Positions 12,390 to 60,033 of a stretch of 64,000 nucleotides of DNA are shown in pieces. The stretch is from Macrotrachela quadricornifera. Taxonomy: Eukaryota > Rotifera > Eurotatoria > Philodinida > Philodinidae. The notes beneath the pieces are model-generated. The model ran no database searches. It saw nothing but the letters and a program-made list of their open reading frames with translations, and was not told the origin of the DNA. Within the stretch, counting starts at the first letter, position 1. Every line of letters begins with the position of its first letter. The position numbers and the translations under genes are program-made. The stretch is taken from assembly GCA_022393335.1 (NCBI GenBank), contig JAJEKB010020399.1, forward strand, positions 435,379-499,378, read 5' to 3'.

Positions 12390-12648
12390 TTAAACGTGCC
12401 AACATTCAGTTAGCCTATAGCCAGATAAAAACCATCGTTTTAAGAGATTAATAGCAACTCTCAGATCAAACCTGAAACGCATTGTAATATTCTTTTTTAA
12501 TTTTAATGAATCAGATCGAACACGTCTAGACGTTAAAAAATTTTTCATCCAGACTGCGTCTAAATGCGTACGTGCTTTGCATTTCGCAAGCATATCAAAC
12601 ACGATTTTAGCAAAAAAATATTTATATGGGTTATCAGAGTAGTACTGC
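12390..12648 (-). pseudogene. CaM-kinase-like C-lobe fragment
   Basis: A single exon preceded by an acceptor-like ATTATTGCAG encodes YYSDNPYKYFFAKIVFDMLA followed by KARTHLDAVWMKNFL. This follows the pattern DxPYxxxSxxAKDFIxxML...RLxAxxxLxHPWL at the end of calcium/calmodulin-dependent kinase domains. A basic stretch, LKLKKNITMRFRFDLRVAIN, sits where such kinases carry a regulatory helix. No upstream kinase exons are found on this strand before 13.1 kb, so it is probably an isolated fragment or captured exon. The usual Asp-Pro before Lys/Arg is replaced by Cys-Lys. The family call is tentative. Confidence 0.35.
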
Positions 12649-22511: not shown

Positions 22512-24849
22512 GGGTTCTAGGCGGTTTGCTCGCACAACACTTACTCGCGGACACTTGCCTGCAGGACACTTGCCATGCTCCATTAAAAATGGACACTTGC
22601 TCGCCGGACAGTTGCCCGTCTAAAATACCTGCTCGCTAAATATTTATGCATCATTTGTCAATTCTATAACTCCTTTTTTTTATTTGATTGCTGTTCGCAT
22701 TTTATTCAGATAGTTAGAAAATTTAGAGATTATGATAAAAATATGAATACACATATAAGAAAGTGATCCAGTATGCTTAGATCGTCAAATTGTATAAAAA
22801 AATTAGGCAGATTTGAGAGAAATATTATTTGCTAATCCTAAAACCTTTTCTACATTTGTCATAGAGGACTCGTTCAAAATATTCAAAATTCTTTTTTCTC
22901 GTCTTTCCGTAAGCAGATGTTTTCGTCTTCGAACACCAGCTTCGGCTTGATGCAATTGAGCCTCGACATATGATTGTTCTTTAGTCAGTAATTCGAGAAA
23001 TTTCCACATATTTAGATGTACACAATCAACGAGTGACGAGAAACGATTGTGCCATCCTTCAATTTGATTATTAGTCCGATGATAACCTTTCATAGTGCGT
23101 TCATGAACATTCCAAGTGACCAGATCGAATTAAGGCTTTTATTTTGATTGACTTCCACGTTTTTTCGCACCAATATAAGTTTCTTCAAAATATAACAACA
23201 CCTCCTTTGCCTTGAGTGGATTTTGTTCTTTCAATTTTTCAAATGTATCGATAATGTCATATACATCGAGAAACGCCAAAGCAGGTAAAGCCCGAATTTG
23301 TTGAGCAAGAGTCTGGTTATTGGAATAGTCAACTTTCAGTCCAAGACGAACAACAGCTCTGTACACCGACTGACAAAGGTGGAAGAAACATCCGTCAATG
23401 TTCGCTTGCGGAAAAGTCGCTTGAATGCTAGAAATAGCGGCTATTTCGAAGTCCATTGACACATTGGCAGGATCTAAATTCGGTTTTAAATCATTAATTA
23501 CTTTAAACATCTCATCATAGCATTTTTTGCTTTTCCTAAAAGAAAAGATTCATTAATCATTATTTGAGCTGAGTTATATTTACCTGGTAGTAAAACATAG
23601 ATCATTGGAAAGATAGTATCCAAATACTCGCAATGAATGGTGTATAATTGAAAAAATAAACTTGGTACCACAGAGAATGTCCCACCGACAAATATATTCG
23701 ACGATCTTTTCAGGATTTTGAGCTGTTTTTTTGTAAAAAAGATTAAAATTCTTCTACTCGTTGGTCCTGAATCATACTGTAGAAACTTTTTGTTTTTTGC
23801 TGTTTGTGTCATATGAGACGGAATTGATAATGCTTGAAGTGACGCTGGTAATGCGTTCGAACTCTGACTTTTTTGACGAATACGACGAATTGTTCTCTTC
23901 AGATTATGCAGGTCTGGTAACGACACAATTGCTTGAGCAGATAAACAACCAACACTCCCAGCAACGATATCATGTGTTGATCGATCCGATGATCTGGTTT
24001 CCTCATTCATTCGGGCGCGTACATCCATCAGTTCTGCGGCACTCGCGTTCGGCTCGTGATTATGTGAACCGATTGTATGTACAACTCGATCGTTGATTGT
24101 ATGTAATCTTGTCTTGCATTGACCATGTCTTTTACGATTACAACACCATATTGTCCTATCACCCATTAATCTTTTGATAGGAAACATATAGCCATCAACA
24201 ATATACGCAGGATTTCCTCTAGAAGTGATCATTTTGTGATGCGCCGCCGACATCGTAAAATCAAATAGTTAGATGTTCGCTGCCTAATCGACCAGGATGC
24301 ACCAATACTAGATGACTAACTCTATATTGTCGGACGGATGATAATAAGATAAGAAAGTGATCGTTTCACACTATGTTTACTTATGCAAAATCATTAGCCT
24401 TATGTAGAATGAGACATCATTCATCTATAGGAAATATCCAACGGATGAACGAGGTAAAATAATCCGAAAAATCCTAACAGATATAATACACATGGGTAAT
24501 AACACGTAGAGAAGGAAAGTACTTGTCAAGGAAAAAAATGAAACACGCTATGTATAAGAAAGGAAAAATCCACATATATGTGATGACAGAAAAGGAAAAG
24601 TCTAAACATATGAGTCAATAGTAGAACGCAAGGAAAAGAATTATCGATACACGTAAAAACGAAAATTAAGCGTTCGAAAGGAATAGAATGAAGCATGAAG
24701 GCGATTGGTATCAAATGGCGAGCACAAGTTATGCGGGCGACTGTCCGACAGGCAATTGTCCGCTGCAGGCAAGTGTCCGTTGCAAGCAAGTGTCCATGAC
24801 GAGCTTATGTCTCGCGAGCAAGTGTGCAGCGGGCAAACGGCCGTAACCC
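22512..24849. mobile_element. Mutator-like (MULE) DNA transposon, about 2.34 kb
   Basis: The left end GGGTTCTAGGCGGTTTGCTC and the reverse complement of the right end, GGGTTACGGCCGTTTGCCCG, form an imperfect inverted repeat. Inside each end are repeated GGACACTTGC words: at 22549, 22564 and 22591 on the left, and in reverse at 24769 and 24786 on the right. The transposase remnant lies between. No exact target-site duplication is visible next to these borders, so the true ends may lie slightly further out. Confidence 0.65.
22803..24253 (-). pseudogene. FLYWCH-MULE transposase, decayed
   Basis: The N-terminal part (24253-23525) carries a FLYWCH-like zinc finger, seen as GDRTIWCCNRKRHGQC, then VHTIGSHNHEP. 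It is followed by the MULE core (VGGTFSVVPSLFFQLYTIH). The middle (23510-23139) has MDFEIAAISSIQATFPQA and DGCFFHLCQSVYRAV, the second catalytic Asp region. The end (23093-22803) has YHRTNNQIEGWHNRFSSLV with the catalytic Glu. Damage: the first catalytic Asp of the usual DGTF is Gly here (GGTF, near 23690); a one-base frameshift lies near 23525; and stops separate the last two blocks (near 23130). A 55-bp intron may lie at about 23530-23585. This copy cannot encode an active enzyme. Confidence 0.8.
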
Positions 24850-33234: not shown

Positions 33235-34162
33235 TTATTTCATCAAATGTTCGAAATAATCACCTTGGTTATCTATACACAACTGCATTCTTTCAATTCA
33301 TTTTTCAAATGCTTTTTTATATTCTTCTTTGCTCAGAGAATACATGAAACTGACCACAGCGTCATATAATGATTGTGAATCACTTTGATCAGTCAGATTT
33401 TCTTTGATTAAGTCAAATAGCCAAAAATCACATGGTGATAAATCAGGAGAGTTAGATAGATGCGGTATTACTGTGAGACCTTCTGATTCGAGATAGGTAA
33501 ACACATCTTCGTGAACATGTGGTTCTCCATTGTCATGATGAGTTTTAATGCCACGGGTTCCGTACGAAGATCTTTGGCGTTTACTTTCATCGACGACATG
33601 ACGTAAACAGTTGTCGATATAATACTGGTGATCGATAGTTTGTCCTCGTTCAAAACGGTGAATGAACAAAGGATCATTAGATTTAAAAAAGATGACTAAT
33701 AAGGTCTTTGGAGCATACTTACTCTGTCGAACTACAATAGATGGAGGATCTCCTCTTCTCATCCACACTGTATTTGATGACTTTCGACCAAGTCGTTTAT
33801 GCTGAAACTACAATTCGTCACCAATTATTAAATCACATAATCGCCATGTTCCTTGCTGAATTTTTTTAAAGTTTGCTTTACATATTCGAACTCGCTCCGC
33901 CCGCTGCAAATCGGTGAGATCTTTAGGTACATAGCGTGCAGTGACCTTTATAAGGTTCAAATGATTGATGATGATTCGATGAATCGTGCCATAGCTTAAA
34001 TCAGTTTGCTCTTGTAACTCTTGGATCGTGAGATAAGGATCGTCGTTGATAAGAAGGAGCTTGATCAGCATAAACAGAACACAATTCATCATAAATAATT
34101 CTTGCTTGGATATTAAGTGCGGCACGCACTTTAATGTAGAAACGGAAATTTTCTGTACTCAT
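33235..34162 (-). pseudogene. Mariner (DD34D) transposase, inactive
   Basis: Starts ATG at 34162 (MSTENFRFYIKVRAALNIQA) with the mariner N-terminal helix-turn-helix. Near 34060 the frame shifts, and roughly 60 residues expected in the family are missing, so the protein jumps to INDDPYLTIQELQEQTDLSY. The first catalytic Asp survives in IIGDEL but is followed at once by a stop (TAG, near 33810) where mariners have Trp. The second lies in THHDNGEPHV and the third in SPDLSPCDFWLFD. There are 34 residues between the last two, the mariner DD34D signature. A second stop (TGA) replaces Trp after KKAFEK near 33297. The frame ends at 33235. Confidence 0.85.
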
Positions 34163-39604: not shown

Positions 39605-42600
39605 AAGCAGAGACCGAAACGGAGCGGGGAAACGGGGCGAGGAATCGGGGTGGGGTGAGTTTTTAAGCCCTCGAGGCGGGGCGGGTTGAAGTTTTCGAGA
39701 GATACAGTGAGGCTGGACGAAGTTTCATTTTCGAAATTTTTCGTGCTAAAGTTTGATTATAGAATATTTAAATGATGCAGTTTAAACTCAATGATGAATA
39801 TCAAAGTCAATGATGGATGTCTTTGTAATACAGACTTTTATCCTCCACAACAACCTCTTTTAAACTGAATTAATAGCCAATGATACTGAACATGTATTAT
39901 TATTGGATATATGGATGGATGGATGGAAAATATGCAATTGATCATCACCTCATTGATGATGCCGTATTATATTTGATGAAAGTCAATCCATGTATCTGCT
40001 TCTCTCATAATGCTTTTATTGTAATTTTATTGTAACAAGTGTTCATCCTGCAGTTTCTCTGTTTTGGTCTATAACACATATTAGTACGATTTTTCTTGTA
40101 CAGCAACAACAAATGTTGTTTATTTCGATTTACTTTTTTTTGCTTGATGTGTATTTATTCATACGCTTTTTTACAATGATTTACTAAATCGTTTTCGTCT
40201 TTTCTATATTTTGATCTAAGTTTCTTTAATATTCTTTATCGTTTTTTTCTTAGACGATGTTATTAGGTGTGCACGCTTTCTCTATATATCATCTCACTCT
40301 TTGAATTATATCATTCTTTGTGTTCTTTCTCGACGGTAATATCATTCTTTCTATTCTTTGTCATAGATGATTTCATCCAACTCTTCGTATGTTTTTCCTT
40401 TGTCCTTAATATATATTTAAGACGTTGTTAACTTCACAACCAACATGTTCATTCTGCGAAACACATTAAAATAACTTTTGATATATCTTTACTTGAATTA
40501 AACAATTCTTCTTTTCTAAGTCTATTCGAATGGTAAACGATAACGATGGTGATCTTATTCTTTTATCATCTTCTCAAAATCAACCATCAACTGCTGATTT
40601 TATTGATAAACAACGAATTAATGATGATTCAAATCAATCAAAAACAATTGCAATGCTGTTAAAAAAGAGTGACAAGAAGTATGTGGTGATGAAAAACAAT
40701 AGAAATGTATCAAGTGGTATATGGTTAAAGTTCGGTTTACCAGCGAAACAAAATGAAGAAAATCCTGATCAATATGATGTTATACCAAATTATTCATCAT
40801 GTTTTAAATGTTTTCGAACATATCGATTTATCAGTTCATCTACTAGTAGTATGAAAGATCATAAATGTCCTCAAGACGTTCCTAAAGGACAACAACAACG
40901 GCAACGTCTTGCACTTCACCATCATCTTCACGAACAATGATGTCAACAAAAATTATAATACAGAAAAAAGATCGTTTAAAGCAGCTATTTGTTCGATGGG
41001 TAGTAACTGGTTTACGACCGTTTCAAATTGTTTCTGACAACGGTTTAGAAGTTATTATTCAAGAATGTTTAGATATAGGTATAGTTGTATTAACTTTTTA
41101 TTGAATGTCATTGATCTTCAAAAATTATTTCTTAAGGTCGTGAACTACATTTACAAAAACTTTGTGCATATGATTTGTTATGTACTGATCGAACAATTCG
41201 AAATGAATTAACCAGAATGGCTGACGATGAGAGAAAAGAATTAAAAGAATTACTTGTAGATTGCGCAAACGCTGGTTGTCTTTCAATAAGTCCAGATGTT
41301 TGGACTGATAATCATCGAAAAATAGTTTATTTAGGTGCCACAGCTCATATAGTGGACAGTCATTTTAAATATCGTTTAATTGATTTATTTTGTATTGAAT
41401 TTAAGGAGAAAAAAAAACTGCTGATAATATAATAAAAGTAAATGTACAACATTAATCTGTTTGTTGATAATATATTTAATAATTTCATTTCAGCTAGTTC
41501 AACAACAACTTTTTTCTATGAACTTGATTCATCAATGGATTTAATCACCTTCGTTAGTAATAGAGGGTCGAATTTTATTAAAGGTTTACGTTATTATCAT
41601 CATATGTTTTGTGTAGCACATCGTCTGCATGGTATATTAAAGAAAGTATTTTTCCAAAATGTCGCAAAAGAAAAACAATCACCGTTTAAAACTCAACCAA
41701 TTATTTCTATTGAAATTACACCAACAAAAACAACATCAAATTCTCGTCAATTATCTCCAGAAATTCTTCCTAATGGTGAACATCAAGATGAAATTGAACA
41801 AGCAGCTATTGAAGAATGGAATAAAGAAGAAGAAGATGATGATGACAAAGATGATTCATTTGATCATTCAGCATTGGCTTCAGCCAATATTCCTTGGAAT
41901 GCCCAAGAAGTATTGGATACCATTCATCATTGTAAAGTGCTCGTTCAGTATGTAAAAAAAGTAAGATTTTTGTTGAAAAAAATTTAAACAAGTTGTTTTA
42001 AATATCCGCTTTTAGACAAGTTTAAATCGTCAAGTTCAATTAATGAATGAAAACGAAGATGGTAACGTGAAGAAACAACAGCATTCACCATTTACCACCA
42101 TTCATCAATGTTCTAAAGTTCGTTGGTTATCGATGTGTAATCTACTCGAAAGTATCAAAAGATCATATGAACCCTTAAAAGAGTTGTTAGCTGAATCTAA
42201 ACAATTACATCGTATCGAAAAGATTAATCTGTCTATAGTGGAACAATTAGTTGAGTTTTTACGTCCATGGAATTCTGTATTAAAGGAAGTACAAAAGGGA
42301 AATACACCATCCATACATTCTGTGTGTCCTTGTATCAATTACTTATAAGATGATTTACGTAAACGTGAACGAAATGAACGAAATGGTAAGATGTTGGCAA
42401 TATGTTTTCATTTATATTTGTTATTTGGTATCATATAGGAATGAAATTTTTTGCTAAACGAGCATTATCGTTATTAAATTCAATGTTTGTCATCGAAGAT
42501 GAATTTATACTTGCAACATTTCTCCATCCAAATTTCAAACGATTAATGAACACAACACCAGCACAAAAAACAGAATGTTATCACACTTGTCGTGTATGGC

Positions 42601-43260
42601 TACCAAAACGCAATACATCAGCAACAACAACAACTGATTTAGCAACCAATGATGAAAATGAACCACCAAGAAAAAAACCAAAAAATTTATTACAACAATT
42701 AATGGATAATGAAATTTCCAATACTAAATCTTCAACTAAAGATAAAGATGAAGTTGACATATACATCAATTTTAAAGTGGATAAAGAAAACGATTATTCA
42801 AATCCTTCACTATTCTGGCAAGAATATCAACAAATATTTCCAAATCTAGCAAAACTAGCGCGTCGCACTTTTTCCATACCATGTAGCTCAGCTGCGGTGG
42901 AGAGAGAATTTTCTGCTGCTGGTCAAGTTGTAAATCAAAGAAGATCAAATTTAGATCCATCAACTGTTAACAATATCTTATTTCTTCGTTCAATTGAGAA
43001 TAACAAAGCAAAAAACTAATCAAAATGCATACAAAGTGTTTTTTTTTTTATATATTTTTTCTTACTCTTTTGTAAGTTTTTTTTAATTATATAATTAAAT
43101 AAATTTCATCATCAAATAAAATAGTTCTTATAAGAATAAGACGGAGCGGGGCGGGGAGCGAAGAAAAGAAGCAAAGGGCGAGGTGAGGCGAGGCGGGGAT
43201 AACTTCTTTCGGGGCGAAGCGGGGCGGGGAGCAAAAAATTCTCTTCGTTTCGTCCTCTGG
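39605..43260. mobile_element. hAT DNA transposon with G-rich flanks, approximate limits
   Basis: The decayed hAT transposase is bracketed by GC-rich, strongly G-biased patches in an AT-rich setting: 39613-39690 (GAAACGGAGCGGGGAAACGG...) and 43138-43240 (AGACGGAGCGGGGCGGGGAG...). They are similar and stand in the same orientation. I could not find exact terminal inverted repeats or an 8-bp duplication, so the borders are rough. Confidence 0.5.
40530..43019 (+). pseudogene. hAT transposase with BED-type finger, decayed
   Basis: Exons by eye start at 40530 (MVNDNDGDLILLSSS). A BED-like zinc finger follows (SSCFKCFRTYRF...HKCP). Then come LRPFQIVSDNGLEVIIQECL, a 58-bp intron (41079-41136), SISPDVWTDNHRKIVYLGAT, VSNRGSNFIKGLRYYHHMFC with AHRLHGILKK, KVRWLSMCNLLESIKRSYEP, and the C-terminal dimerisation block (IPCSSAAVEREFSAAGQV ... 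NNILFLRSIENN). The catalytic Asp expected in VSDRGSN is Asn here (near 41561). Frames shift near 40905, in an A-run near 41410 and near 41525. A stop lies near 42346. The transposase is inactive. Confidence 0.85.
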
Positions 43261-43723
43261 TTTGAAGTCGATATTTTTAGGCAACCAGTGTATAATATCA
43301 TCTCTACTAATACATGCATTAGTGTATCTTGCTATCTGTTGATAAGAAGAAAAAGTGACTTAGAATGTCCATGTGTTATATTGTATCATTGATGTACATG
43401 TATGTGATTAGTTTTTTTTTCCTACAAATTAAATGAAAAAAAAACTGTTTGATTGATGAAGCGTGACTAACCATAAATAAATGAAAAAAAACAAGCAAAG
43501 GAAGAGACATTTTTCGATAGAAAGTAAATTTTTGTACACGTTTTTTTTTTTATATTATATTTTGCCATTGTGCTATTCATCAGAAAGTATTTTATATTGT
43601 TACCAAGTTCTACATAATTAACAAAGTTTCATTTCATGAATGTTTTATTAAATGTAAGTCTTTCTAGCATTATACATTCATAGTCGATGCAATCAAAATT
43701 ATAATTTGTATTCAATACACGTT

Positions 43724-45631
43724 ATGGAGAAGCTAAGACGATTGCGACGACCTTATGTTGGTGCAATTCAGAACTATCTAGTCGTCTGGCTAAACGAGAA
43801 TATCGATAAAGAGAATAATGCTGATTGTCAAAATGCCATTACTAAGTTACGAGAAGTAGCAAATAGTGTTAATACATTCAATGATATTGATAAATGTGTT
43901 AATTTTATTACTGATATTAAGACCGAAAAGACCTTTATGATTTGTTCGAGTTCCACCGGGCACATTATTGTCCCGATCGTCCATGATATGGCACAGATCA
44001 GTTGTATTTATATCTTTTGTGAAAATAAAATCCAAGATGAACAATGGACACAGAAATGGCTCAAAGTCAAGGATGTCTTTACTGATATTCAACTCATGTG
44101 TAAAGCACTGAAGAAAGCTGTTCACGAATGCGATCAAAACAGCATTTCGATGAGCTTCGTGTCCACTTGTAGCCATCCAATAAATAAAAATCTCGATCAA
44201 CTTGATCAATCCTTTATGTACACTCAGATACTAAAGGAAATTCTACTAACCATTAACTTTGATGAAAAATATTTTAAAGAATTTATTACATTCTGCCGAG
44301 AAATATTTGACGGCAATCCAGCCGAACTTCATCATGTCGATAAACTCGAACAAGAATATCGTCAACATACACCAATCTGGTGGTACAGCTATCAATGTTT
44401 TCTTTTCTCGATGCTTAATCGAGCATTACGTGTTATGGATGTCGATCTCATCATCAATTTGGGCTTCTTTCTTTGTGATCTTCATCAACACATTACTCAA
44501 GTACATTTCGAACAATATGGCAGGAATTCTCATTCAACCATCTTCACTGTCTATCGTGGTCAAGGTTTGTCTCAAACAGATTTTGAACAATTGATAAAAA
44601 CAGAAGGTGGTTTATTATCATTTAATAACTTTTTGTCCACTAGTAAGAACCGTGAAGTTTCGCTCGACTTTACCCGTCAAACGATAAAAAATTCCAATTT
44701 AGTGGGCATCTTATTTGTCATGACCATCGATTCCACCATACCTTCAACTGTATTTGCTGATGTTCGAGACATTAGTTGTTATCAGGAAGAAGAAGAAATT
44801 CTTTTCTCCATGCATTCCATATTTCGTATTAAACAAATTAAACAGATTGATGACAATGATCGACTTTGGCAAGTAGAGTTGATATTGACTGGAGATCACG
44901 ATCCACAATTACAGACACTAACGGAATGTATACGAGAAGAGACATTTTCAAGTTACAAAGGATGGCATCGATTGGGGAAATTATTGATTAAACTTGGACA
45001 GTTTAACAAAGCACAACAAGTGTATGATGTATTGCTTGTTCAGACATCTGATCATCGTGAGTTAGCACACATTTATCATATGCTTGGAATGATCAAGAGA
45101 AGTCAAGGAGAATATTCAGAAGCGATTACATTTTATGAAAAATCACTTTATATTAAACAGAAAATTCTTTCTTCAAATGATTCCGATTTAGCTATCTCTT
45201 ACAACAACATCGGTTTAGCTTATCAGGAGATGGGAAATTATTCGAAAGCACTTTTGTATCACGAACAAGATCTTAAGATTTCAAAAACGATTCTTGCTCC
45301 AGATCATCCTGATTTGGGTATTTCTTACTGCAATATGGGAAAAGTATTTAATCGAATGGGTGAATATTCAAAAGCACTTTCCTATCACGAAAAAGCGCTC
45401 AAGATTTTTCGAGCAACTCTTCCTGAAAACCATTCTTATTTTGCTGCAACTTACAACGAGATCGGCTTTGTGTATGAAAACATGCGCGAATATTCGAGAG
45501 CATTGTCCTCTTATGAACGTGCTATTAATATTGGACAACGTTCGTTACCTGAGAATCATCCACGTCTTCAACAGTGGACAAAGAATCTTGAACATATAAA
45601 AAAGAAGTTGGAAAATAAATCATTTGAATAG
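43724..45631 (+). CDS. ADP-ribosyltransferase-TPR protein, 635 aa
   Basis: Single exon. I chose the ATG at 43724 (MEKLRRLRRPYVGAIQNYLV). The first 140 residues are an unassigned N-terminal domain. Next is an ART domain with the R-S-E pattern: TVYRGQGLS (Arg near aa 277), FNNFLSTSKN (Ser-Thr-Ser near 305) and CYQEEEEILFSMHSIFRI (Glu-x-Glu near 357). All three catalytic positions are present, so arginine-type mono-ADP-ribosylation of proteins from NAD+ is plausible. From about aa 400 to 610 come five or so TPRs of the kinesin-light-chain type, for example HMLGMIKRSQGEYSEAITFY and YNNIGLAYQEMGNYSKALLY, which probably choose partners. No signal peptide is seen, so it is likely cytosolic. This fusion is typical of large bdelloid gene families. 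The stop is at 45629-45631, and a MITE begins 8 bp later. Confidence 0.9.
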   Translation: MEKLRRLRRPYVGAIQNYLVVWLNENIDKENNADCQNAITKLREVANSVNTFNDIDKCVNFITDIKTEKTFMICSSSTGHIIVPIVHDMAQISCIYIFCENKIQDEQWTQKWLKVKDVFTDIQLMCKALKKAVHECDQNSISMSFVSTCSHPINKNLDQLDQSFMYTQILKEILLTINFDEKYFKEFITFCREIFDGNPAELHHVDKLEQEYRQHTPIWWYSYQCFLFSMLNRALRVMDVDLIINLGFFLCDLHQHITQVHFEQYGRNSHSTIFTVYRGQGLSQTDFEQLIKTEGGLLSFNNFLSTSKNREVSLDFTRQTIKNSNLVGILFVMTIDSTIPSTVFADVRDISCYQEEEEILFSMHSIFRIKQIKQIDDNDRLWQVELILTGDHDPQLQTLTECIREETFSSYKGWHRLGKLLIKLGQFNKAQQVYDVLLVQTSDHRELAHIYHMLGMIKRSQGEYSEAITFYEKSLYIKQKILSSNDSDLAISYNNIGLAYQEMGNYSKALLYHEQDLKISKTILAPDHPDLGISYCNMGKVFNRMGEYSKALSYHEKALKIFRATLPENHSYFAATYNEIGFVYENMREYSRALSSYERAINIGQRSLPENHPRLQQWTKNLEHIKKKLENKSFE

Positions 45632-47640: not shown

Positions 47641-47790
47641 CCCAGGTGAACCAATCCGACACCGGATCCTATAGGATCCGATCATCCGACAGAATCCTGT
47701 AGGATTCCGGGTGACGGAATTGCATAGGAATCCAACTGTCGGATTAGTATCGGATTCCGATGATATCCGATTGTCGGAGCTAATATTTGT
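47641..47790 (+). repeat. Left terminal and subterminal repeat array of the CMC element
   Basis: It begins CCCAGGTGAACCAATCCGAC. It contains the perfect palindrome CGGATCCTATAGGATCCG (47663-47680), then many TCCGA/TCGGA/GGATTCC words up to about 47780. It is GC-rich against an AT-rich background. These are probable transposase or helper-protein binding sites. Confidence 0.8.
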
Positions 47791-49780
47791 TCAACTGTCG
47801 CACTCCAATGATATTTCTATAACGCCTTTATAATTTTGTCGAACTGTTAATGGAATGTTGTAGGTATGAGCGCATTTCATTCGAAGTCTACTTATGTTCC
47901 CCTATAGAACTATGTGAATTTGAATTGTTAGGACCTGATGAGTCACTAAAAGGCTTCTGATCAGGGATCATCATGAAATATTGCTATTTTGCTCACGACG
48001 TATATCATGCTGTAACAAGAATAGGAAAAATTAACTTCATGTGTTGCAAACAATGCCAACGTGATGACACACATTTGACAGTTTTCGCAACCGATATTCA
48101 ATATTCATTTATATTATATTGACAAATGTTTTAATTGAACTAAATTTGCGACATAAAATTACTAAGTAAGAAAACCATGAGATATCGTTTTTAATACTGA
48201 GGCAAATTTTAGGATCACTAAAGCAAATTTTCTTTGTTCGTAGAACTACAATGCAGCGTGACGTGCGAATAGACTTGCTTTGTGCTAGACTTCGTATTTG
48301 ATAAAATTTTAAGATGCCACACGGCATAGTCACATATAAGATTTAGTAGAATTCTGTCTATATGTAAGTTTTAGACAGATGCAATAATACTAATAACAGT
48401 TTTCCGTTGCTATCTAGCCAGTAGAAGGCATCATGCGATAATGAATTTTTGTTGGTCATACTCATCATTATTTTTATTTTTACATTTAATCAGAGCACGT
48501 CCCAGATACCGCAGCACAGGGTCTTACAAAACTAAAATTGTCTATGTAAATAGAAAAAATATTACATTTTATTATTATTTTTTCTGATTTTTTTGAGTAA
48601 TAACATAATCAATGATTAAGTCGTTTTGAATTTCTTTTTTCCTTTAAAATATTTGAAGGTATATAATTATTTGACTAGATTGAAAAATAAGATTGTAAAC
48701 TTTAGTCAATATCTTTAGAACATTCCATTTCTTGCTACTTGTATTGGCGATTTAGTATTACAAGCTGTATTTCTTTCTAGTAATCTTGAAGTTAAAGAAA
48801 TTTTAAATATCTTCTCAGATAAGTCATCTATAGGATCAAAAAAGTTATTTTCATCAGGGACCAAAACTTGAAAATCTATTAGCTACAAAAAAATTTTGTA
48901 ATTCGTTGATAACAGTCTAATATGAATGAAATCTAAAAGAATGTTATGAAGACAATTTAACAAATAAAGATAACCATAGAAAAACTAAATAACAAATGAT
49001 TCGAACGTTATTCGAATAATACAGTTACTGTTCTCCTCCGTATATGATCTATAGAGAAAATTATTGAAAAACTTATGTGAAATTGATTATTCTTCGGATT
49101 TGTTGGCATTAATATAGTTTTATTAGCATCTAATTATAATCTAATGTTTCACTTTAGATTTCGATTGGAATATTATAATTGTAGTTTTTTATTGTAGAGT
49201 AAGCCAAATAATTACAACTTAATAATAAATCGCTATTCATTGATATAGATAAAGTTCCTTAAATAATATAATACATACTCAATCTAATAGAAATAAAACG
49301 AAGCCAGAGTTTTCCATGATTAAAATAATATTTAATTTAGATTAACAGTAATTTCAATTTATTGTAGTGTAATTTAAAAGCTTTGTATTTTGTTCAGTTT
49401 TGTTCTGCTTATATGGGAAGCATAATCTAATTCCAATCAGATAATTGTATCACCTTGAACTTGTAACTGTCGTATTATATTTTCTATTTACCATAAAAAA
49501 TATTGTAACTTTTCTGTTTAATCTTATATTTTTTTTAAGTCTTTTATGATCTATCAATTCGATTAATTTGTAATATTACAAATAACAAGCCACCTTATCG
49601 AAATTTTTTTTACGGAAGTTCGAGACGCTTGTCAGTTTCATACTAATATTTTAAAAACAAAAATTACTCAAATTGAAATGTAAATGCTTTCTTTTTTTTC
49701 AAGTATTGTTTTTTCAGATTTCTTGTTGATTTGATAATTGACCATCAATTTTTTTGAATCGTTTAAAATATTTCATCAGA
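47790..49780. other. Non-coding 5' region of the CMC element
   Basis: AT-rich with no supported exon. It presumably holds the promoter and 5' UTR of the transposase gene that starts at 49782. Confidence 0.4.
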
Positions 49781-49781
49781 A

Positions 49782-52700
49782 ATGGATATTTGGATATCAT
49801 CCACTATTGAAGATGAACTTAATGTTGCTTGTGAAAAGCGACATCATTATAATACTTTACGAAAAGAAATCCGTAATAAAGAACGTAATTTAGATAATTT
49901 CAAATTGTTGCACAGTAATGATCAAACCTCTAATGAAACATCTTCATTAAATGAAAATGAAATTATGCAAGTTGATGAAGCAGCTTATCAAAATCAACAT
50001 CCAACATCAAGCTCAACCATATCAAATTGTTTTTCTATAAAAAATACGTCCATTTGTGCTGAATCACGATCAGATAATGATGATGATGATTTTGAAATCA
50101 TTAATGCATATGAGTCCTTTCTAAATTCAGATCAATCTCATAGTAGTTCTGACGAAGAGCAAGAAAATGACTATGATAAAACTCGTGTTGATCGTTTACA
50201 TAGATATACAAATGTGACTACATCAGATACATGTATAAAATTGGTACATCTCTTGAGAAGTTCACAAATAAGTAAATCTCAATCTAAACAACTGTTATTT
50301 TTTATTCATGATTTACTTCCAACACCAAACAATTTCCCGAGAAGTTTATCAAAGCTATTCTCTGAAATCAATATTCAAACATATTACAATAAACGAATAA
50401 TTTGTTGCTTATGTGGTACACGATTAGATAAACAGAAAAAATGTTTTACTTGCCAAGGCTTCGAAAAAAAGCATTTAGCATTTATTTATGATAGTCACTT
50501 CACAAAAATATTGACCTTGACCGTATCTCGATTATTTCAAGAAATTGAAAATTATAGAGAAAAATTTTCAAAACATAACAATAATAATGTGAATGAAATA
50601 TATGGTATTCCATTTGCAAGTATTTATCAAAGTATACGAAAATCATATAACAATAAAACTATTAGTTTATTATTCCATTTGGATGGAATTGGTATTTGTA
50701 AAAGTACAAAGCTGAAGATGTGGATATTTCCTGCATCAATCATAGAATTACCACCCAATCTACGTTATAGAAGAGAAAATATGCCACTTGTTTCCTTATG
50801 GTTTTCTTGTACAACTCCAAATTTTGATATGTGGCTGTCGGACAGCATTCAAATGTTAAAATCATTGAAATCGAACGGTATGTTTTTTGTTTTTAAATAT
50901 ATAAGTTTTACAGTAGAGAAAGAGACAGTTTGAAAAAATGATACTTTAATAACAGCAAAGAACAGTTAAATGTTGCTAATCCCCCTTAAACGATTTTGTT
51001 TTTTTTCCATGTGTCCTGTTGTAAATAGAAATATAAAGATTTTTTTTTAGTTTTACGTTCTCTTTACTGTGTGCTTCATTTACAAAGCCCGATAGATAGA
51101 ATAAGAGAGATGCTTTCATCACATGTTTATCTTATGAATATTTATTTAAATGGTGAACATATTTTATTCGAAATTTTTTTATCTCAAAATAACTATTTTC
51201 ATAATGTGGTTATTAGAAGTGACAGTGTGAATTATAGTATATTGTTTTCTCCTAATCATGATACAACATATTCGGTAAAACTATCTTGAAAATGAAGAGA
51301 TCATCAATTTATCTAATAAAATATCTCTCAATTACGATGAAAAGTTCAGAAGCTGTTTTCATTATTCCTAATGAGTCGTTAACAAAGCTTCGTTGTTTTT
51401 TCAAAAAAACTTAATTTTTATTTTGCTATTTGAACAATGGAACTAGCTTTTAATTAAATGCGAACCCTGGATCCTATCTCTGCCAGAACATCGGCGACAA
51501 ATCATAGATAGTTATAGTACATACACAATTGAAAGCTAATTATACTGTCCAAGTTGAAAAATAAAAATAAAGTTTTTGAAACATCGAGAAACCTTTTTTG
51601 ACGATCGAATACCTAATTACACAAAAACAAATTTAATGAAAGCTTTCTTTTTTAGGAATATCGATTGGAAAAAATTTTTCAAATCTAAATGTTTTATGCT
51701 ATGGTGTTATTGGCGATTGTCCTGCCCTCAGCTTAATTACCAAAATTCATAAATCATGGCGGTTATTATTGTTGTTTTTATTGTTATTTAAAAGGCGTTC
51801 ATAATCATATTTGTAGAAAAAGACAATATCCATTGTTGCTTCCATTAGAAAGTCGTGATCCAAAATCATTCGCTATCGAAGCCGAAATAGCTGATGATAC
51901 AGGTAAAACGTTATACGGACACAAAGGTAAAAGTAAATTGTCAGAAATTATTGATGTTCCATTGCCCGTTGCAATTATTTGTGATTATCAACATGTGACG
52001 TTACTTCGCCACTTTCGAGATGTTGTCAAAGTAATAAGCTCTTCTTTACCAATTGGAATACGAAAAGATATAGATTATAAGATACGAAACCAATCTTTCC
52101 CGCATTTTTTCAATCGCAAGATGCGTGGCATTGATGAGTTTAGTTATATTAAAGCGAGTGAACTTCGCAGTTTGTTGTTATATGGTTTTATTCCAAATTT
52201 TTACAATGTATTAACTATCGATCAAGGAGCACATATGTGCTTATTTATTTGTGGCATTCGTATGCTCTATAGTTCTGATAAACTCTTTGGTAAATCAACA
52301 AGTTCTCTAGCTGGTGAATTGTTAGAAACATATTATCAACATCACAGACAATTTTATGAATATTTGGAAAACTTTGTTCTACATCTGCATATACATTATG
52401 GCGTCAATTACGATCGACATGGTGCACTCTCTTGTGTAAACACATTTGCACAAGAGAGCCTAGTTGGTTATATTGCATCTAATCGAAATGGTAAGTTAAT
52501 ATCTTTCAAATTTTGAAACGTGTTTCAAGTATAGGTTCATATAGACAAATAATCTTCTTTCTACTTCCATTTATTAGGTACACGAGATCTCGGTGATATC
52601 ATTATGAACTATTATAATATCGAGATGTATCTTAGTAATAAAACAGATAATTCAATATCAGTCTGTTCTGATGGACCGTTAGATGCTATGTCAAATGTTA

Positions 52701-53184
52701 TTGATTATTATATTGATGAAGTCCTCTTAAAGCATCATACTATCTTTTGTAATTGTAATAAATCAATAGAGAAATGTGTGCATTTTTTTCAACGTTATCG
52801 TATCCGTGGTCGAATTTTTCATTCAATGGCATATAAAAAAAAGGATTATGTAATAGTTATGCAATACAATATTTGAGCAACAACACATCAAACAAAACTA
52901 AGTGTTTTGGAGAGATAATGATATTTTTTTCCAATCAAATAGACTCATATGCTCTTGTGAAAATATTGGTTAGCCAACAGTTGCACAGCGATCATTTCAA
53001 GCCATCACAATTTTATAGAAAAATACGTCAACCACTTGATGCATTTTATCATATTGTTACACATGAAGATCGATTTGTATGTATACCAGTAGCGAATATA
53101 CTGAAACATTGCATTGTATTTGCAAAAGATTCAAGCAAATTTATCATTATTACTCCTGTATCTTCGTACGAAGAGCATGATTAA
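49782..53184 (+). pseudogene. CACTA-like (CMC) transposase gene with two frameshifts
   Basis: Exons by eye: 49782-50877, 51656 to about 52490 (containing a frameshift), and 52578-53184 (containing a frameshift). Introns are 50878-51655 and 52491-52577. The N-terminus is acidic and low-complexity. A zinc-binding CxxC pair follows (CCLCGTRLDKQKKCFTCQ). Core blocks are LLFHLDGIGICKSTKLKMW, VLCYGVIGDCPALSLITKIH, YYCCFYCYLKGVHNHICRKR, SFPHFFNRKMRGIDEFSYIK and YGVNYDRHGALSCVNTFAQE. They follow CACTA/EnSpm-type transposases, with Asp candidates in HLDGI and IGDCPA and a Glu candidate in AQES. One base too many lies at about 51751-51763, because the zinc-knuckle block is in a different frame. A run of eight A near 52835 shifts the frame again before the C-terminal block (FVCIPVANILKHCIVF). 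The copy is probably not functional as it stands. Confidence 0.75.
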
Positions 53185-53835
53185 ATGCTTGCAAAAAAGA
53201 ATATTACATTTTAGTATGCATAAGAGAGGAAGTACGTTTTAGATTATAGTTTACATTGGAACATATACATACTAGTATATGATGCTATAGTTATTTTAAG
53301 TTTTATATTAGGACCGTTTTTCAGTGTGTTATTTCATTTTGGCACGTTTTAATAAACTACTTTATTTAGTTCTTTTCATATATGATGACACTATTGCTTT
53401 TCTGATTTTGTTAAAGAATTAATTTCTTCTTCTTATCGTGATTATAAGAAAAACTCTTCCATAAAGTCACACAATACAAAAAAATTACCAACAGTACAAT
53501 ACATTTTTTAATTTTGCTTCAAGATAATTTCTAACTATTAAAGATACTTCATATTACAGTTCATAAATGGTAAGCGGATATTTGAATTGAGGTTGCCAAA
53601 TTTTTATCTAATAACATGCATGACTATTAAAAACAGATTTACTCGCTAACATCGCTATCTATATTTTATAGAACATATGCTGGATTCCAGCCAACGAACA
53701 GAATAAACTAATATAGTATGCAAAATTATTTGTTCGACGAAGTCTCTAGTCAGAGATCAAGTCTTTGTTGTCCAAATCCAGGTTACTTAAATCATACGAT
53801 GTATGTTTTTATTTTAAAAAAATCATTTTAGAAGA

Positions 53836-56030
53836 ATGGTTGCGTCATCGACCATAAGAACAAGTAGTGGACGTACAATAAAACCATCAAAACGTTATTC
53901 TCCAGATTCACCTTCATCATATCTACCAACTCAAATAACAACATCTTCGTCAATTACTTTTGATGGTAATGCTCTATACGGTGATATTTTTTACACATAT
54001 CTTCCACAGTCTTGTCTTCGAAATGTACTACTCTATGTCATATAAAGTAAAATTGAAGTAGTTTTAATCAACGCTTAATTTTTATCGCTAAGAAATACAA
54101 AGATAGAATTTATCTTATGATATATATCGAAATAAGTTTTATATATCTTACTGTTTCCTATAGAATACCATTTATAATGAGTTTTATTTCTTGTTCTTCA
54201 AAAATAACCTTCGATTGTACATTTTAGTTAATAAACAACAGGCTCGAAAGAAAAAATGCATTGCAGAAAATGCCATTCCTACACAATTTGAAGATGGCGA
54301 CGATGATGATCGTGATGAATTTTTTTGGTATGAATAAAATACGTTTGTTAGGACGATTTCGTTTTCAGAATAAAATTTCAAACATTTTTCTTGATTAAAA
54401 AAGTCTTCTATAACTTGCTTTGTTATTCAGATGCTCAGCCACCGAAAAAAAAAGCTAAAATATGTGCGAAATCTCAGCAAAATAGCCGTGAGACCGTTGA
54501 TAATAAAGAAGGTAATTATTGAAATCTATATATATGCCATTGTCGTTCATAAATATGTTTCTTACATATTTTATCTAATATTTTTTTCAACCTATTTCAG
54601 TGGAATTTCATCCAACTTCTTTTGGTAATGAACATTACTCGGAAGATGAATATTTAGAGGATAGTATGAACTCCATTTTTATGAATGTTATCATTCATTA
54701 TAGGACCCATACTAATTTAACAAACACTTTTTCTGTTTCAGGTAATGTTTATCCAACATCTCAACGACATATAGCTTTTCCAACAAATTCAAAGCACTCA
54801 GTTGATATGTGTGAAACGATTCGAAAAGGTATCGATAAACGAATAAAAACTCAACTAATCCAATAACTTTTATTCTTATATGCTGCTGTTCTAGATCTTA
54901 CTAATGTTTACGAAAAATTAAATAATTCGCTACAAACAAGTCTCGACCGATTCGAAAAACGGTTCAACCGTTTGACTAATATGTGTGTAGCTGCTGTAAG
55001 TAATTACTATAAAGATGGTATTAATTTCTACGATAGAATGTATAAGAGCAAAAATGTAGTTCTTGTAAAACATATAAGATTGATCAGTAGTTTTTATTTT
55101 TAACCGTGTACTAAATTTATGATCACGTTCGAAACGTATTTTACTACTGTGAGTTACAAACAAAAATGAAACACTTTTGCTTTAACACTATATTTAACAA
55201 GACATACACGAATTACAAGCAGAATCTATGTAATCATTGATGCTATATGGAAGAAAATTTTTTGAATTGACCAGCTTCTATACAATATCACCTACATGAT
55301 GTAGACTACATTATGGATTTCACCATTCCTCTGATTTGCATTCTTCCTTTTTCAAACGAATTCTATTTTTTAGAATCAAAATTTCTTAGAACAATACAAA
55401 TCAACATCACATGATGATTTTGAAAAGAATGTGGTAAGTGAAGGTTTTCAGTTAAATATTTTTTTTCCTTTAATGCTTCTTCAACAAGTAGACTTGTTAA
55501 TTTAGAATTTTGGTGAAATCAATTTATTGGATTTCTCAGCAAAAACTTATTCTGACTATGCTCGCTCCATATTACGTATTCTGTATTCCCGAGAAGAGTT
55601 ATGCTCAAAAATACTACCATCATCTTCAACGCATTATGCCCGTGAACATTTGGACCTCGACAGATTTCATTTATTTCATCGTAAGTTTTCCAGAAAAAGG
55701 TTTTCGATTACAATCTCCCGAGCTGAACAGGTCTTTTCTTTTCTACAGTTCATTAATTTTTCAGTGTAAAGGAATTATCCTATTTCTTATAACATAAAAA
55801 AAAATTATTTTTTATTTTTAGGTGCAATCCGGAGTAAATATCGTATCGATGAACAAAGATACGATCATTTCTTTAAGTATTGTTTACGCAGGAAGCTCGT
55901 TGATTTTCTATGTGATGAAAGAAAACGAGAGAAGAAAAGAAAACAGCAACTAATCGACGCTGCAGAACGTATACGTGCTGGTACACAAACAACTTTAACA
56001 ATATTTTCCATCGATCCAAAAATTAATTAA
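53836..56030 (+). CDS. Multi-exon protein with BEN-like C-terminus, inside the CMC element
   Basis: Exons inferred from GT-AG signals: about 53836-53963 (MVASSTIRTSSGRTIKPSKR), 54228-54328 (acidic), 54431-54511 (PPKKKAKIC, basic), 54600 onward, 54745 onward, a helical exon near 54895 (NNSLQTSLDRFEKRFNRLTN), then about 55507-55680 and 55822-56030. The last two exons give YARSILRILYSREELCSKIL, LDLDRFHLF and a basic tail. The pattern of a helix with an acidic FSxEEL-like turn followed by LDxxR resembles BEN domains, which bind DNA or chromatin. The gene lies downstream of the transposase in the same orientation. Inferred role: a DNA-binding helper of the element, like TnpA of plant CACTA elements. 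Exon limits in the middle are uncertain. Confidence 0.5.
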
Positions 56031-56039
56031 TATTCTAAT

Positions 56040-57290
56040 GATCAAAAACAATTACAAACATATCACTTTTTTTACTCAAAAAAAAACAAAGACAACAGCT
56101 ATTTTACTGTTCCTCCTCTTTTCGAAACTCCTATTATTCATCATTTCTCTTGTTCGTTACACGCTAAATAGTATATTGAGCACAATTTTTATATTTCCCA
56201 TTTAAGGCCATCGTACGAATCCACTAACCCGCTTATGCCATATACCATTGCCGCCTTCATAAAACTATAAAACATTTCCTCGCCTGTTTTTCCCTCCCTG
56301 CTAATACCATTATTCATGACTATCCGCAATAATTTCCTGTTTTTCTAGTTCTGATTTAAGAATTTCATAGCTGCTTAAAGGACTTGAAATCCTTACGGCT
56401 AACCGCAACACATATTCTTTTCTCGTAACAGTTCTTGCGATTTCTCCAGTTTGCTAAATCAATTCGATTTCTTCCAGTTATTTCTTTTAAAAGATTTTAT
56501 TAATTGTTCTAGGATTTAAGATCCTCAACGATTGCCTATTTTGCTGCTTTATTTCGAAGACTCTTGATTATTTTTCTACGTCTTCCAAACTCCTCTTATT
56601 TGCTTCTTTTCACTTTATATCCGAAAGGATATTTTTTATTTTTCTACGATTTAACATTCTTATCCTTTCCGTCCTTTCTTTTTTTATTATAACACATTCT
56701 TTTTATTTCTTTCACATGGAAACTCCTTCACCTCAGCCAACACTATTTATAACGAAGGATTTTTTTCAATTTTAGAATTTCAATTCCTGCACGTCAATTT
56801 CTATACCTTATATCCTTCAAAGATGTGCCACTATTTCTCGTCCAACTCTGACACTTCAACGTACCCATCCTTATTAAGAGGTGAATATATTTTTGTATTT
56901 CTTTAATATTTCGAAATACTGAATAATTTTCTCCATTCTATATTTAATGTATAAGATTTTTTTGTATTTATTTAGTATTTTAGAATACTTAATCTAGTTA
57001 TCCATTCTATATTTAATGTATGAGATTATTTTGTATTTATGTAGTATTTTAAAATACTTAATATAGTTATGCATTTTATGTTCAATATAAAGGGGATTTG
57101 TGTATTTTTTTAGCATTTTGACAGCGTGCATTGTTTTCGTGGCAAATATCGGAAAAGATATTTGCTGATTTCGGTGGGTGGTTGTGTGATTGTATTCGTG
57201 GTGCGGGACTAAATTTTGGCTTTATAGTTTGCTTGTTTGTGGTGTTGGTAATTGATTGTTTTGGTGGATTAAAATTTCACGGTGTAGGTC
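56040..57290. other. Non-coding spacer inside the CMC element
   Basis: Between the two BEN-like genes. Around 56890-57100 a phrase close to TTTTGTATTTATTTAGTATT followed by ATTCTATATTTAATGTA repeats three to four times about 75-80 bp apart. Otherwise AT-rich without a supported gene. Confidence 0.5.
56885..57110. repeat. AT-rich tandem repeat, unit about 77 bp, 3 copies
   Basis: Copies begin near 56885, 56955 and 57032. They share TTTTGTATTTATTTAGTATT, a tail AAAATACTTAAT and TTCTATATTTAATGTATGAG with small changes. It sits upstream of the second BEN-like gene and could be regulatory or neutral. Confidence 0.65.
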
Positions 57291-57293
57291 AGC

Positions 57294-58621
57294 ATGAAAA
57301 GTCATGGAAGTCGAGATGGTAAGAAATGTATGATATAGGAGTTATCGTATTTTAACGAGTCGTTCGATTTTAGGTGATAGTGAGGACCGGTTTGAATTGG
57401 TGGAATGTAGGGATGGTACTAGTAATGATGAGAGGAGCTGTCTCTCGAAATCGTTGGAGGATAGTGGAAATGGTAATTTATCGGCCTGTGATAGTGAACA
57501 AATGAAAAAGACAGATTTATTGGCTGCTTATTCGACGGAATTACAGTCTTTTGTGGATGATGAGTTAGGTGTGATTGTTGGGGAAAATAAAGAAAATAGG
57601 AAGAAAAGTAGTATAGAAATTGGTGTGTCTATTTGTAATATTCATCAGCCATTATTGTTGTTTTCTACTTAGGGGGCAGAATTGGCAATAAGCGAAAAAG
57701 ATGTGTTGATGGAACTGCAGATTCTGTTGGATGTAAGAAGTGCGAGGGGCGGAAGAATAATGATGATGATGATTACGAAACATTGAAAAAACGTTGTGCT
57801 CGTCTGGAGGCTCGAATCAGTAAGTTCGAGATGGGGTGGATGCGTAAGTATGAATTATTACGATGCTTTTTTTGTTATTCAGGACATATTTTTGGGCGTA
57901 AAAATAGAAAGGAGGTTTCAGTTTTTAACGAATAATATATGTTGATATAAAGCGCGCTTCTCTTATTTTATCTGAATTCTTTAGGTTACTTTGTTCTTCT
58001 TTTTCTCGTAGAAAATAGCATATTTTGTAAAATAAATTGGTTTTAGCGGTATATATAGATTGACATGCGAATATTCATAGTAAGTTTTGATTGAAGAAAG
58101 CTAAACTTACTATAAGATTTACTGGCACGTATTGATAATTTCTTTGTGTATTTAGCAAAGCCACGGCAATCTGAAGTTATTGATTTTTTTATTAACACTG
58201 CAAAAGTATTACGTCCAATTGAAAATGAATTATATGGTGATGAAGCTGAATGTTTTTCCAAGTTAATTGACGATTTGGGTATTAATAAAGTTCATTTATC
58301 CTACTTTATTAAAAATAATGCCACAGCTAGTGCAAGAACGTTGATAAAATGGAAATATCCAAACCCACCAGTACATTTTCGTTTACCTGATGTGGATAAA
58401 GAACTGATTGATATGATAATTCGTAAGTGGAATTTATTATATTATTACATATAAAACAAGCGTTGTATTATATAGAATTCGTTCGCTTTTCAAATCCTCA
58501 AGATCAATCATCAATCATGTCGATCAGAAAAGCTATTTCGAATTATTTTTCTTCATTCGCTTTTAAAAACAAAAGCAGAGCCTTTACTGATTCCAACGCA
58601 GATACAACAGAAGATCACTAA
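57294..58621 (+). CDS. Second multi-exon protein with BEN-like C-terminus, inside the CMC element
   Basis: Inferred exons start at ATG 57294 (MKSHGSRDG). They continue 57374 to about 57622 (acidic, with TELQSFVDDELGVIV) and about 57672-57843 (basic NKRKRCVDG, a CxxC in GCKKCEG, then a coiled-coil-like ETLKKRCARLEARISKFEMG). The next exon is 58155-58421 (SEVIDFFINTAKVLRPIENE ... SARTLIKWKYPNP) and the last is 58476-58621 (FVRFSNPQDQSSIMSIRKAI). It ends TAA at 58619-58621. The block LPDVDKELIDMII followed by RKAISNYF resembles the LDxxKxxAIxxFV...AIxN pattern that closes BEN domains. Same strand as the transposase and the first BEN-like gene. An element-encoded DNA-binding partner is inferred, not shown. 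Confidence 0.5.
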
Positions 58622-58624
58622 GAG

Positions 58625-59815
58625 TATTATCATTGTTTTGATGAAGGAGGACGTTTCTTTTATTTTTATTGGTATTTTACTATAAAGTACAATCAATTTT
58701 ATGAAGAAAGCTGAATTTTGGAATTTTCTTCTTTTCATTGTTCATTGGTTATAAAAATTTTTGCTTTGATGTTTGCTTTTGCTTTATTGAACATTTTTGG
58801 TTTCATATTACTTCTCATATTATCTAATATTTTTTCTTTTTCTTTTTTTTTCTTTATTATTTTCAAACCGAATTTTATGCTTTTTCAATTTCTCCTTACT
58901 TAAATACGTAACATACCAATAAGAGCAATATTTAACTTGCAAGAGCCTAACACATTTGAGAGTAGTGTATAAGGTCGATCGATTTAAGCACAATTACATT
59001 ACTGATTTCTTATTAATCTACATGCGGATCTATCCATTCATGAACTTAACAATTAGTGTAAAAAGTTTTTGCAGAAGGACAGATAGTATCACAAAGAAAT
59101 AAGAAAGTTTCAAAAGATGATTAAATATATGAACGATAAAATCGTGATATAATCGATTTATTGTCGTATTACACCATAACTTGAGAATATGTCGATATAA
59201 TTGAAAAATCTAAACGAACAACAATATCGATGGTAAGTAGTTTTCACATAGTATAATATTAATTTTTCAAACAAATGATTTATAATTTGTTCATCGTGCA
59301 TTTCTAAAAGATACCATTTTCAGTAGAATTTCGTTTACAAATCAGTAAGAGATTTGTCTCTCAGCTTCTATAATAGCAAATATTCATGTTCGATCGAAAA
59401 GATAACTACGAAACAACAAAGCATACTTTTCCTTTTGGCAAAAAGTATGGATGTAAATCATTTTACATAGCTATAAGTATATAAAACTACCAAAAGATAA
59501 CTGAATAATAGTAAAAGTTTCATCCGATGTATTAGTATGAGACGTTGTTCATCAAGAACATGCTATGCATTACTACGGTTTGTTATAGCTACTATTATCA
59601 ACTACATAACATATATTTCTGGATAATTTCTGGGTGTATGTAATTATACTGAAACCACTAAACGATACTTTTAATATCAGCTATAATCGTCATAGAAAAA
59701 ATGTGCTATTTACTTGTAATAAAACAATAAATGATCATAAAAGAATTGAGATACTTAAAATATTGACTATTGTCTTTTTTACTACATTGTCATATTTTGC
59801 TCGCCCGTTATGATA
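58625..59815. other. Non-coding 3' region of the CMC element
   Basis: AT-rich with poly-T/poly-C-T stretches near 58800-58870. No supported gene before the right terminal array. Confidence 0.4.
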
Positions 59816-59817
59816 TT

Positions 59818-60033
59818 GTTGCAGTGTAGGATTTTATAGGTTCCAGTTAATAGGATCCGATCGTTTTCCGATTAACGGATTTTGTCGGTTCAAGTTACTG
59901 GGATCCGATCGGATCCGTAATCCGACGGATTCCGACGCGATTCCGTCACCAGGTTTCCGATGATATACGTATAGGATCCTGTCGGATCCTATAAATTCCG
60001 ATCGGATCCGACTCTAGGATTGGTTGACCTGGG
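59818..60033 (-). repeat. Right terminal and subterminal repeat array of the CMC element
   Basis: Dense GGATCC, TCCGAT and TCGGAT words, including the perfect palindrome GGATCCGATCGGATCC at 59901-59916 and GGATCCTGTCGGATCC near 59975. It ends GGATTGGTTGACCTGGG, the reverse complement of the left terminus with one change. It is about 1.5 times the length of the left array. Confidence 0.8.

Follow-up and report, generated by a model that had tools for sequence, protein, structure and literature searches.

Subterminal arrays and a transposase-linked BEN-like gene in a CMC-type transposon lineage of the bdelloid rotifer Macrotrachela quadricornifera

We analyzed a 64,000-nucleotide stretch of the genome of the bdelloid rotifer Macrotrachela quadricornifera (contig JAJEKB010020399.1, positions 435,379 to 499,378; hereafter the window), which holds a complete CMC-type transposon whose features are listed in Table 1. 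Between its inverted ends lie a CACTA-like transposase gene and two further spliced genes in the same direction (genes 2 and 3), and arrays of short repeated words stand beside each end. We found that gene 2, which encodes a BEN-like domain, accompanies this transposase lineage elsewhere in the genome, and that elements with the same terminal bases have different arrays. An earlier reading of these letters (the original prediction) had proposed matched ends 12.4 kilobases (kb) apart, which proved correct: the ends agree, inverted, at 16 of 17 bases, and other copies have identical borders.

Table 1. Features of the CMC-type transposon, in positions of the window.
Feature	Position	Strand	Remarks
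Complete CMC-type transposon	47641-60033		12,393 base pairs (bp)
Left terminal inverted repeat, CCCAGGTGAACCAATCC	47641..47657	+	Exact start base of other copies
Left subterminal array	47655..47800		TCCGA/GGATCC words
Perfect 18-bp palindrome in left array	47663..47680
Transposase exon 1	49782..50877	+	DUF1258; first D in LFHLDGI, by eye
Transposase exon 2	51656..52490	+	Second D in VIGDCPA, CFYC = C(2)C, HLHIH = H(3)H, E in FAQES, by eye; frame break near 51750
Transposase exon 3	52578..53184	+	Second frame break near 52840
Gene 2	53836..56030	+	Nine exons, 329 amino acids, frame intact; BEN-like C-terminal domain
Gene 2 exons	53836-53965, 54228-54311, 54431-54511, 54601-54663, 54742-54828, 54895-54995, 55374-55433, 55506-55680, 55822-56030	+	Predicted splicing
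Gene 3	57294..58621	+	Five exons, 276 amino acids, frame intact; not standard in lineage
Gene 3 exons	57294-57318, 57374-57622, 57673-57843, 58156-58422, 58503-58621	+	Predicted splicing
Right subterminal array	59825..60016		GGATCC/TCCGA words
Perfect 16-bp palindrome in right array, GGATCCGATCGGATCC	59901..59916
Right terminal inverted repeat, inward reading CCCAGGTCAACCAATCC	60017..60033	-	Inverse of left end, one mismatch

Exon 1 of the transposase matched Pfam DUF1258 (expect value (E) 3e-10; 40.4 bits against a cut-off of 33.1), which we take to be a CMC transposase domain, and the motif order typical of CMC transposases (D, D, C(2)C, H(3)H, E) could be found by eye in exons 1 and 2; these two results bear out the CACTA-like transposase that had been predicted between the ends. 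As assembled, the window copy is probably non-autonomous, because its transposase contains two frame breaks. Exon 2 had 20 database relatives, and the three with an organism name came from Rotaria sp. Silwood2, Adineta steineri and Didymodactylos carnosus.

Genes 2 and 3 are both intact as gene models and run in the transposase direction, as predicted; the models were built from sequence alone, with splice sites picked to preserve the frame, and all introns are GT-AG. All three database relatives of gene 2 were from Rotaria magnacalcarata or R. sordida. A genome search with the C-terminal 127 amino acids of gene 2 gave 53 exon matches in 36 loci including the window, many of them exon pairs flanking a short intron, and the splice position and domain were conserved across loci. 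In the corresponding search, transposase exon 2 had 70 matches; 59 of them were used, the other 11 being extra fragments of loci already counted, and these formed 47 loci. We divided them, at a gap chosen after viewing the list, into 23 close loci with E no higher than 7e-19 and 24 distant loci with E of 2.5e-14 or more. A gene-2 relative was found 2.0-5.7 kb downstream on the same strand at 17 of the 23 close loci (16 of 22 excluding the window; C99 and C100 may be one locus in two copies), whereas none was found beside the 24 distant loci. Because of this linkage, gene 2 is regarded as an element-borne partner of this particular transposase lineage.

The domain also appeared to be under constraint. 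Nonsynonymous divergence (dN) was 0.17 against a synonymous divergence (dS) of 1.36 for exon 2 of L033/L038 (36 codons), and 0.43 against 2.99 for the same exon of window/L033 (39 codons). The transposases of the linked loci are mutually 41-49% identical, L032/L033 apart, and over 15 locus pairs the two genes have diverged about equally (mean identity of 51% for gene 2 and 48% for the transposase). Correlation between the two sets of identities was rejected as evidence of co-inheritance, as r fell from 0.95 in the 15 pairs to 0.10 without L032/L033.

Whether the borders of the element are genuine was addressed by the search that the original prediction had suggested. With the first 260 bp of the element, at least 40 matches to the left end were found in the same genome (the 40 scored among 101 candidates), and 20 regions around them were compared locally with the window. 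Among these 20 regions, base 1 and base 12393 were both matched exactly in L014, L015, L018 and L021, and the borders agreed to 1-3 bases in L019, L020, L023, L024, L025 and L028. The two-ended copies were 1.2-1.5 kb long, except L019 (3.3 kb), and no coding parts were found in the short ones. Flanks of at least ~160 bp on each side were common to 9 of 11 compared copies, the exceptions being the window and L019 with flanks of their own. Thus, the short copies represent one insertion within a larger repeat that was amplified afterwards (a nested family), and we rejected them as independent insertions. The left flank was also distinct in L009, in the L011/L012 pair and in L027. Since insertions with their own flanks have the same borders, these borders are genuine and used by independent insertions. 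The left third of the element has an 87% relative in L009, where the reading frames are broken too; this relative stops where a piggyBac-like frame, recognized by eye, starts (L009:5100-5730, reverse strand).

A 2-bp target duplication was identical in three of seven independent complete insertions (L011 CA/CA, L035 TG/TG and the nested family TA/TA, although the nested-family member L014 has TA/TT), and the other four match at one of the two target bases (window TA/TT, L029 TC/TT, L033x TT/TG and L019 AT/AG, where L033x stands for the neighbouring stretches L034 and L033). The length of the target duplication is probably 2 bp. The right end of the L033 element adjoins a tandem repeat of ~14-15 bp, GGACAATTCGTTGCA-like (L033:80-262).

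Inside these borders, dense TCCGA/GGATCC words and perfect palindromes of 16-18 bp had been predicted beside each end, and both were recovered (Table 1). There are 13 GGATCC words in the 64 kb, where 5.3 would be expected and where none of 100 shuffles reached 13, and 8 of them lie within the two end regions; TCCGA is not enriched window-wide (71 against 76 expected), yet it clusters beside both ends. The top hexamer of the right end exceeded all 500 shuffles and that of the left end tied with the highest one, while 8-bp palindromes were in excess at the right end (6 against 1.6 expected; 3 of 500 shuffles) and not at the left (1 against 1.0). Perfect palindromes of at least 14 bp also occur elsewhere in the 64-kb window, where they are mostly A+T-rich.

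The right terminus CCTGGG is kept at seven of the eight loci L039-L046, as well as at L029, L030, L032, L033x and L035, and L038 has the variant CCTGAG. No right end was found in the examined stretch of L031, L036 and L037. At L041:1-1551 (reverse strand), the CCTGGG end was not found downstream of the gene-2 relative in the examined stretch.

What is new here is that elements with common CCCAGG...CCTGGG ends have different subterminal motifs. Class 1 arrays, which are TCGGATCCGA-like, were found in the window element, L029, L035 and a further element beside L046; class 2 (TATACGATCGTATACG-like) in L030, L032, L033 and L038; class 3 (AAGATCTTAC-like) in L039 and L040; class 4 (ATACGG/CGGTCCG-like) in L042-L044; and class 5, a weaker ATCATATATGAT-like set, in L045 and L046. 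Classes 1 to 3 are clear, and the count of five is provisional, because the classes were defined after viewing the arrays and classes 2 and 4 have words in common. In the four elements read at both ends (window, L029, L035 and L033x), each end has its array within the outermost ~250 bp. The gene-2 domains of the window and L029 are 47% identical and go with the same class 1, whereas those of the window and L033 are also 47% identical and go with different classes; motif class is therefore not simply tracking divergence. The class-5 element of L046 is followed, ~20 bp past its right end, by another CMC element whose left array is of the GGATCC type (L046:1201-1450).

Both extra genes had been predicted to have BEN-like C-termini. 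Pfam BEN (PF10523) matched 3 of 10 rows of the gene-2 domain alignment (E up to 10), the window row not among them, and no other family had matches in more than one row. Rescanned singly, L033 and L036 matched BEN at E 0.022 and 0.092 (positions 2-75 of 76), and the third row may be L032, which is nearly identical to L033. We then compared the 10-row alignment by hhalign with stretches of five solved BEN structures (BANP, BEND3, Bsg25A, Insv and part of BEND6), and obtained a score of 26.6 (P 4.4e-4, probability 33.5%) over 55 columns; the alignment was in the expected register and ran from the first helix to the conserved LD. None of 500 decoys reached this score, the highest being 18.0 among 300 column-shuffled targets and 17.8 among 200 column-shuffled queries. 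In this comparison the predicted BEN-like domain was upheld for gene 2 and failed for gene 3, for which 97 of 200 decoys scored as high or higher; gene 3 was rejected as a second BEN-like helper. Judged from such profiles, the C-terminal domain of gene 2 may be called BEN-like, and a true BEN identity is weakly supported.

Considering these results together, we think it fairly probable that the elements form a two-protein lineage, in which an end-cutting DUF1258-type transposase is assisted by a BEN-like partner that binds family-specific subterminal arrays. DDE transposases cut at terminal bases, and the transposase here would recognize the conserved CCCAGG...CCTGGG ends and cut there. The gene-2 protein, as a dimer or higher oligomer, would bind the family-specific repeats beside both ends and pair those ends for the transposase, and it might also control the element promoter, as TnpA does for plant Spm/En. 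By analogy, gene 2 would be a functional counterpart of plant TnpA and the reader of its own family's array. We infer the BEN fold, DNA binding and partner role of gene 2, as well as its being the array reader rather than the transposase.

Several observations weigh against this reading. Six of the 23 close transposase loci had no detected gene-2 relative, and the close pairs L032/L033 and L029/L035 showed few changes and weak constraint, exon 2 of L029/L035 having a single, nonsynonymous one. The top hexamer exceeded all 500 shuffles at only 10 of 16 array ends (of the others, window left, L033 left, L030 and L042 equalled the best shuffle, which L038 and L045 did not reach), and 8-bp palindromes were in excess (by a criterion of no more than 22 of 500 shuffles) at six of the 16, in classes 1-3 only and not in classes 4 and 5. 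The BEN site of NAC2 is non-palindromic, according to the available part of PMC7764960. The Pfam search for BEN that the original prediction had proposed matched neither window protein, gene 2 having been scanned as a single sequence, and the three matching rows of the domain alignment stayed below the family threshold (best score 15.4 bits against a gathering cut-off of 23.2). No BEN match was found in four full-length gene-2 proteins either, which gave weak matches to others (Glypican, E 0.0055, and DUF5737 in 2 of 4), or in single rescans of L029, L030 and the family consensus, and a genome-wide Pfam BEN search at E 0.001 returned nothing, but its positive controls were silent too. An AlphaFold2 model of a Rotaria gene-2 relative from a 5-row alignment was poor (predicted local distance difference test, pLDDT, 41). 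These low BEN scores, the lack of a match in most rows, the poor model and the sequence-profile searches of solved structures with gene 2, which gave no BEN and no credible match, all favor the possibility that the two-protein design uses some other helical DNA-binding domain that resembles BEN by chance. We consider this explanation unlikely, although it deserves to be taken seriously: BEN is the sole family found in more than one row (at least L033 and L036), and the profile comparison beat all 500 decoys along a stretch from the first helix to the LD.

It is slightly more doubtful that gene 2, while element-borne, acts as a repressor or chromatin factor for expression and that the transposase itself reads the arrays. 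Known BEN proteins do include repressors and boundary or insulator factors (available passages of PMC6911014 and PMC6317261), and the nearly equal divergence of the two genes gives no reason to prefer gene 2 as the array reader. However, pure regulation would need an array at the promoter end only, whereas four elements have arrays at both, and the roles are not exclusive, since plant TNPA both binds repeats and suppresses (PMC2613891, in its available part). Still less probable is that gene 2 is a host gene captured once and hitchhiking without any function in transposition. More than half of the gene-2 loci (19 of 36) have no detected transposase match adjoining them, a count that also speaks against the two-protein lineage, and another extra gene, gene 3, is present in the window element. 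On the other hand, the linkage persists among loci with a transposase identity of only 41-49% (L032/L033 apart) and is absent from all 24 distant loci, and the splice position and domain of gene 2 are conserved. Some unlinked loci could also be explained. Among the 19, L030, L035, L037 and L038 were looked at, and L045 and L046 on the downstream side only: L030 is cut by a contig end, L037 keeps transposase remnants upstream, and L035:836-2755 (reverse strand) is a 1.9-kb deletion derivative with both ends, a gene-2 relative and its TG/TG target duplication and with no transposase match. At L038, no transposase was found near the gene-2 relative.

The two-protein lineage has its closest counterpart in plants, where the subterminal repeats recognized by TNPA of Spm/En act as cis-determinants of transposition, and where such repeats diverge between families (available text of PMC2613891). 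As far as the sources at hand describe plant CACTA/EnSpm elements (Spm/En, Tgmt*), the window element resembles them in combining a transposase with a predicted element-encoded DNA-binding protein, and conserved termini with family-specific subterminal repeats. It differs in its termini (CCCAGG, not CACTA), in a target duplication that is apparently 2 bp instead of 3, in a second protein that looks BEN-like, and in that gene 2 reads as a separate gene, although alternative splicing from a shared start is possible. CMC/CMCT elements (EnSpm, Mirage, Chapaev, Transib and ESTA) are defined by the D, D, C(2)C, H(3-4)H, E motifs, a target duplication of 2-5 bp and mostly CA..TG termini (passages of PMC12730594). 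The window element agrees with these passages in motif layout, and it has inverted repeats and the DUF1258 match of a CMC element, whereas the CCC..GGG termini of this element and its relatives differ from the usual, non-exclusive CA..TG. The same passages also describe PHIS/Nuwa, in which a transposase is accompanied by a DNA-binding second protein, a Myb/SANT partner; both the transposase superfamily and the DNA-binding domain are different there. With respect to BEN proteins (NAC1, Insv, Bsg25A/Elba1, BANP and BEND3), the gene-2 domain has profile similarity to them, but they are host proteins, and the sequence similarity of gene 2 is below the family cut-off. The BEN domain of NAC1 binds ACATGT, and those of Insv and Bsg25A bind CCAATTGG, which are short palindromes (PMC7764960, available part).

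The open-access literature, as far as its texts were available, yielded no description of a CMC element with a BEN protein (subscription papers, most preprints and Repbase lie outside this scope). The passages of PMC12730594 name no BEN-like CMC partner, and its main text contains no occurrence of BEN or subterminal; the available text of PMC5704228 has the BEN domain in its reference list and CACTA in an unrelated sentence; and the main text of PMC7943196, a paper on bdelloid transposable elements, has no occurrence of EnSpm, CACTA, CMC or Chapaev.

A wider and more tentative idea, which we regard as possible and somewhat doubtful, is that the CMC elements of bdelloids encode BEN-type proteins of their own, and that the DNA specificity of these proteins has been repeatedly retuned, with private array motifs, several of them palindromic, beside constant cleavage ends. 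If true, a single genome would hold a set of protein-array pairs from which the evolution of BEN specificity and the avoidance of cross-mobilization between sister transposons could be read, and animals would have a source of BEN proteins in transposons. Plant CACTA is the textbook transposon that needs a second protein for repeated sites near its ends, and the present lineage would be an animal CMC lineage with the same layout and an apparently different DNA-binding domain. Moreover, several families with identical terminal bases and differing array motifs are present in one genome. The speed at which subterminal repeats and the sequences coding for their readers coevolve is left open in the available part of PMC2613891, and these families would make such coevolution measurable.

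Finally, gene 3 is best read as an extra confined to the window family and not as a standard part of the lineage, because two complete elements, L029 (6,255 bp) and L033x (8,262 bp), have their right end less than 0.5 kb past gene 2 and because its comparison with BEN failed. It had no database relative at E 0.01 and no Pfam match. In the genome search, gene 3 was matched at only three other places. One of these lies on the opposite strand, ~1.7 kb past the gene-2 copy in the L036 element, and the other two are on contigs without a listed transposase or gene-2 match; there was no match in L029-L033, L033x or the other oriented gene-2 loci compared. The check that the original prediction had suggested, whether other copies keep the two extra genes with the transposase, thus came out positively for gene 2, at the 17 close loci given above, and negatively for gene 3, which was not found in L029 or L033x.

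Outside the transposon, other features of the 64-kb window were recognized by eye. Minus-strand frames at 22806-24268 have the look of a MULE-type transposase, and those at 33301-34158 are Tc1/mariner-like. Plus-strand frames at 40497-43016 have a hAT-like C-terminus, and a 657-codon open frame at 43658-45628 resembles an ADP-ribosyltransferase with tetratricopeptide (TPR) repeats.

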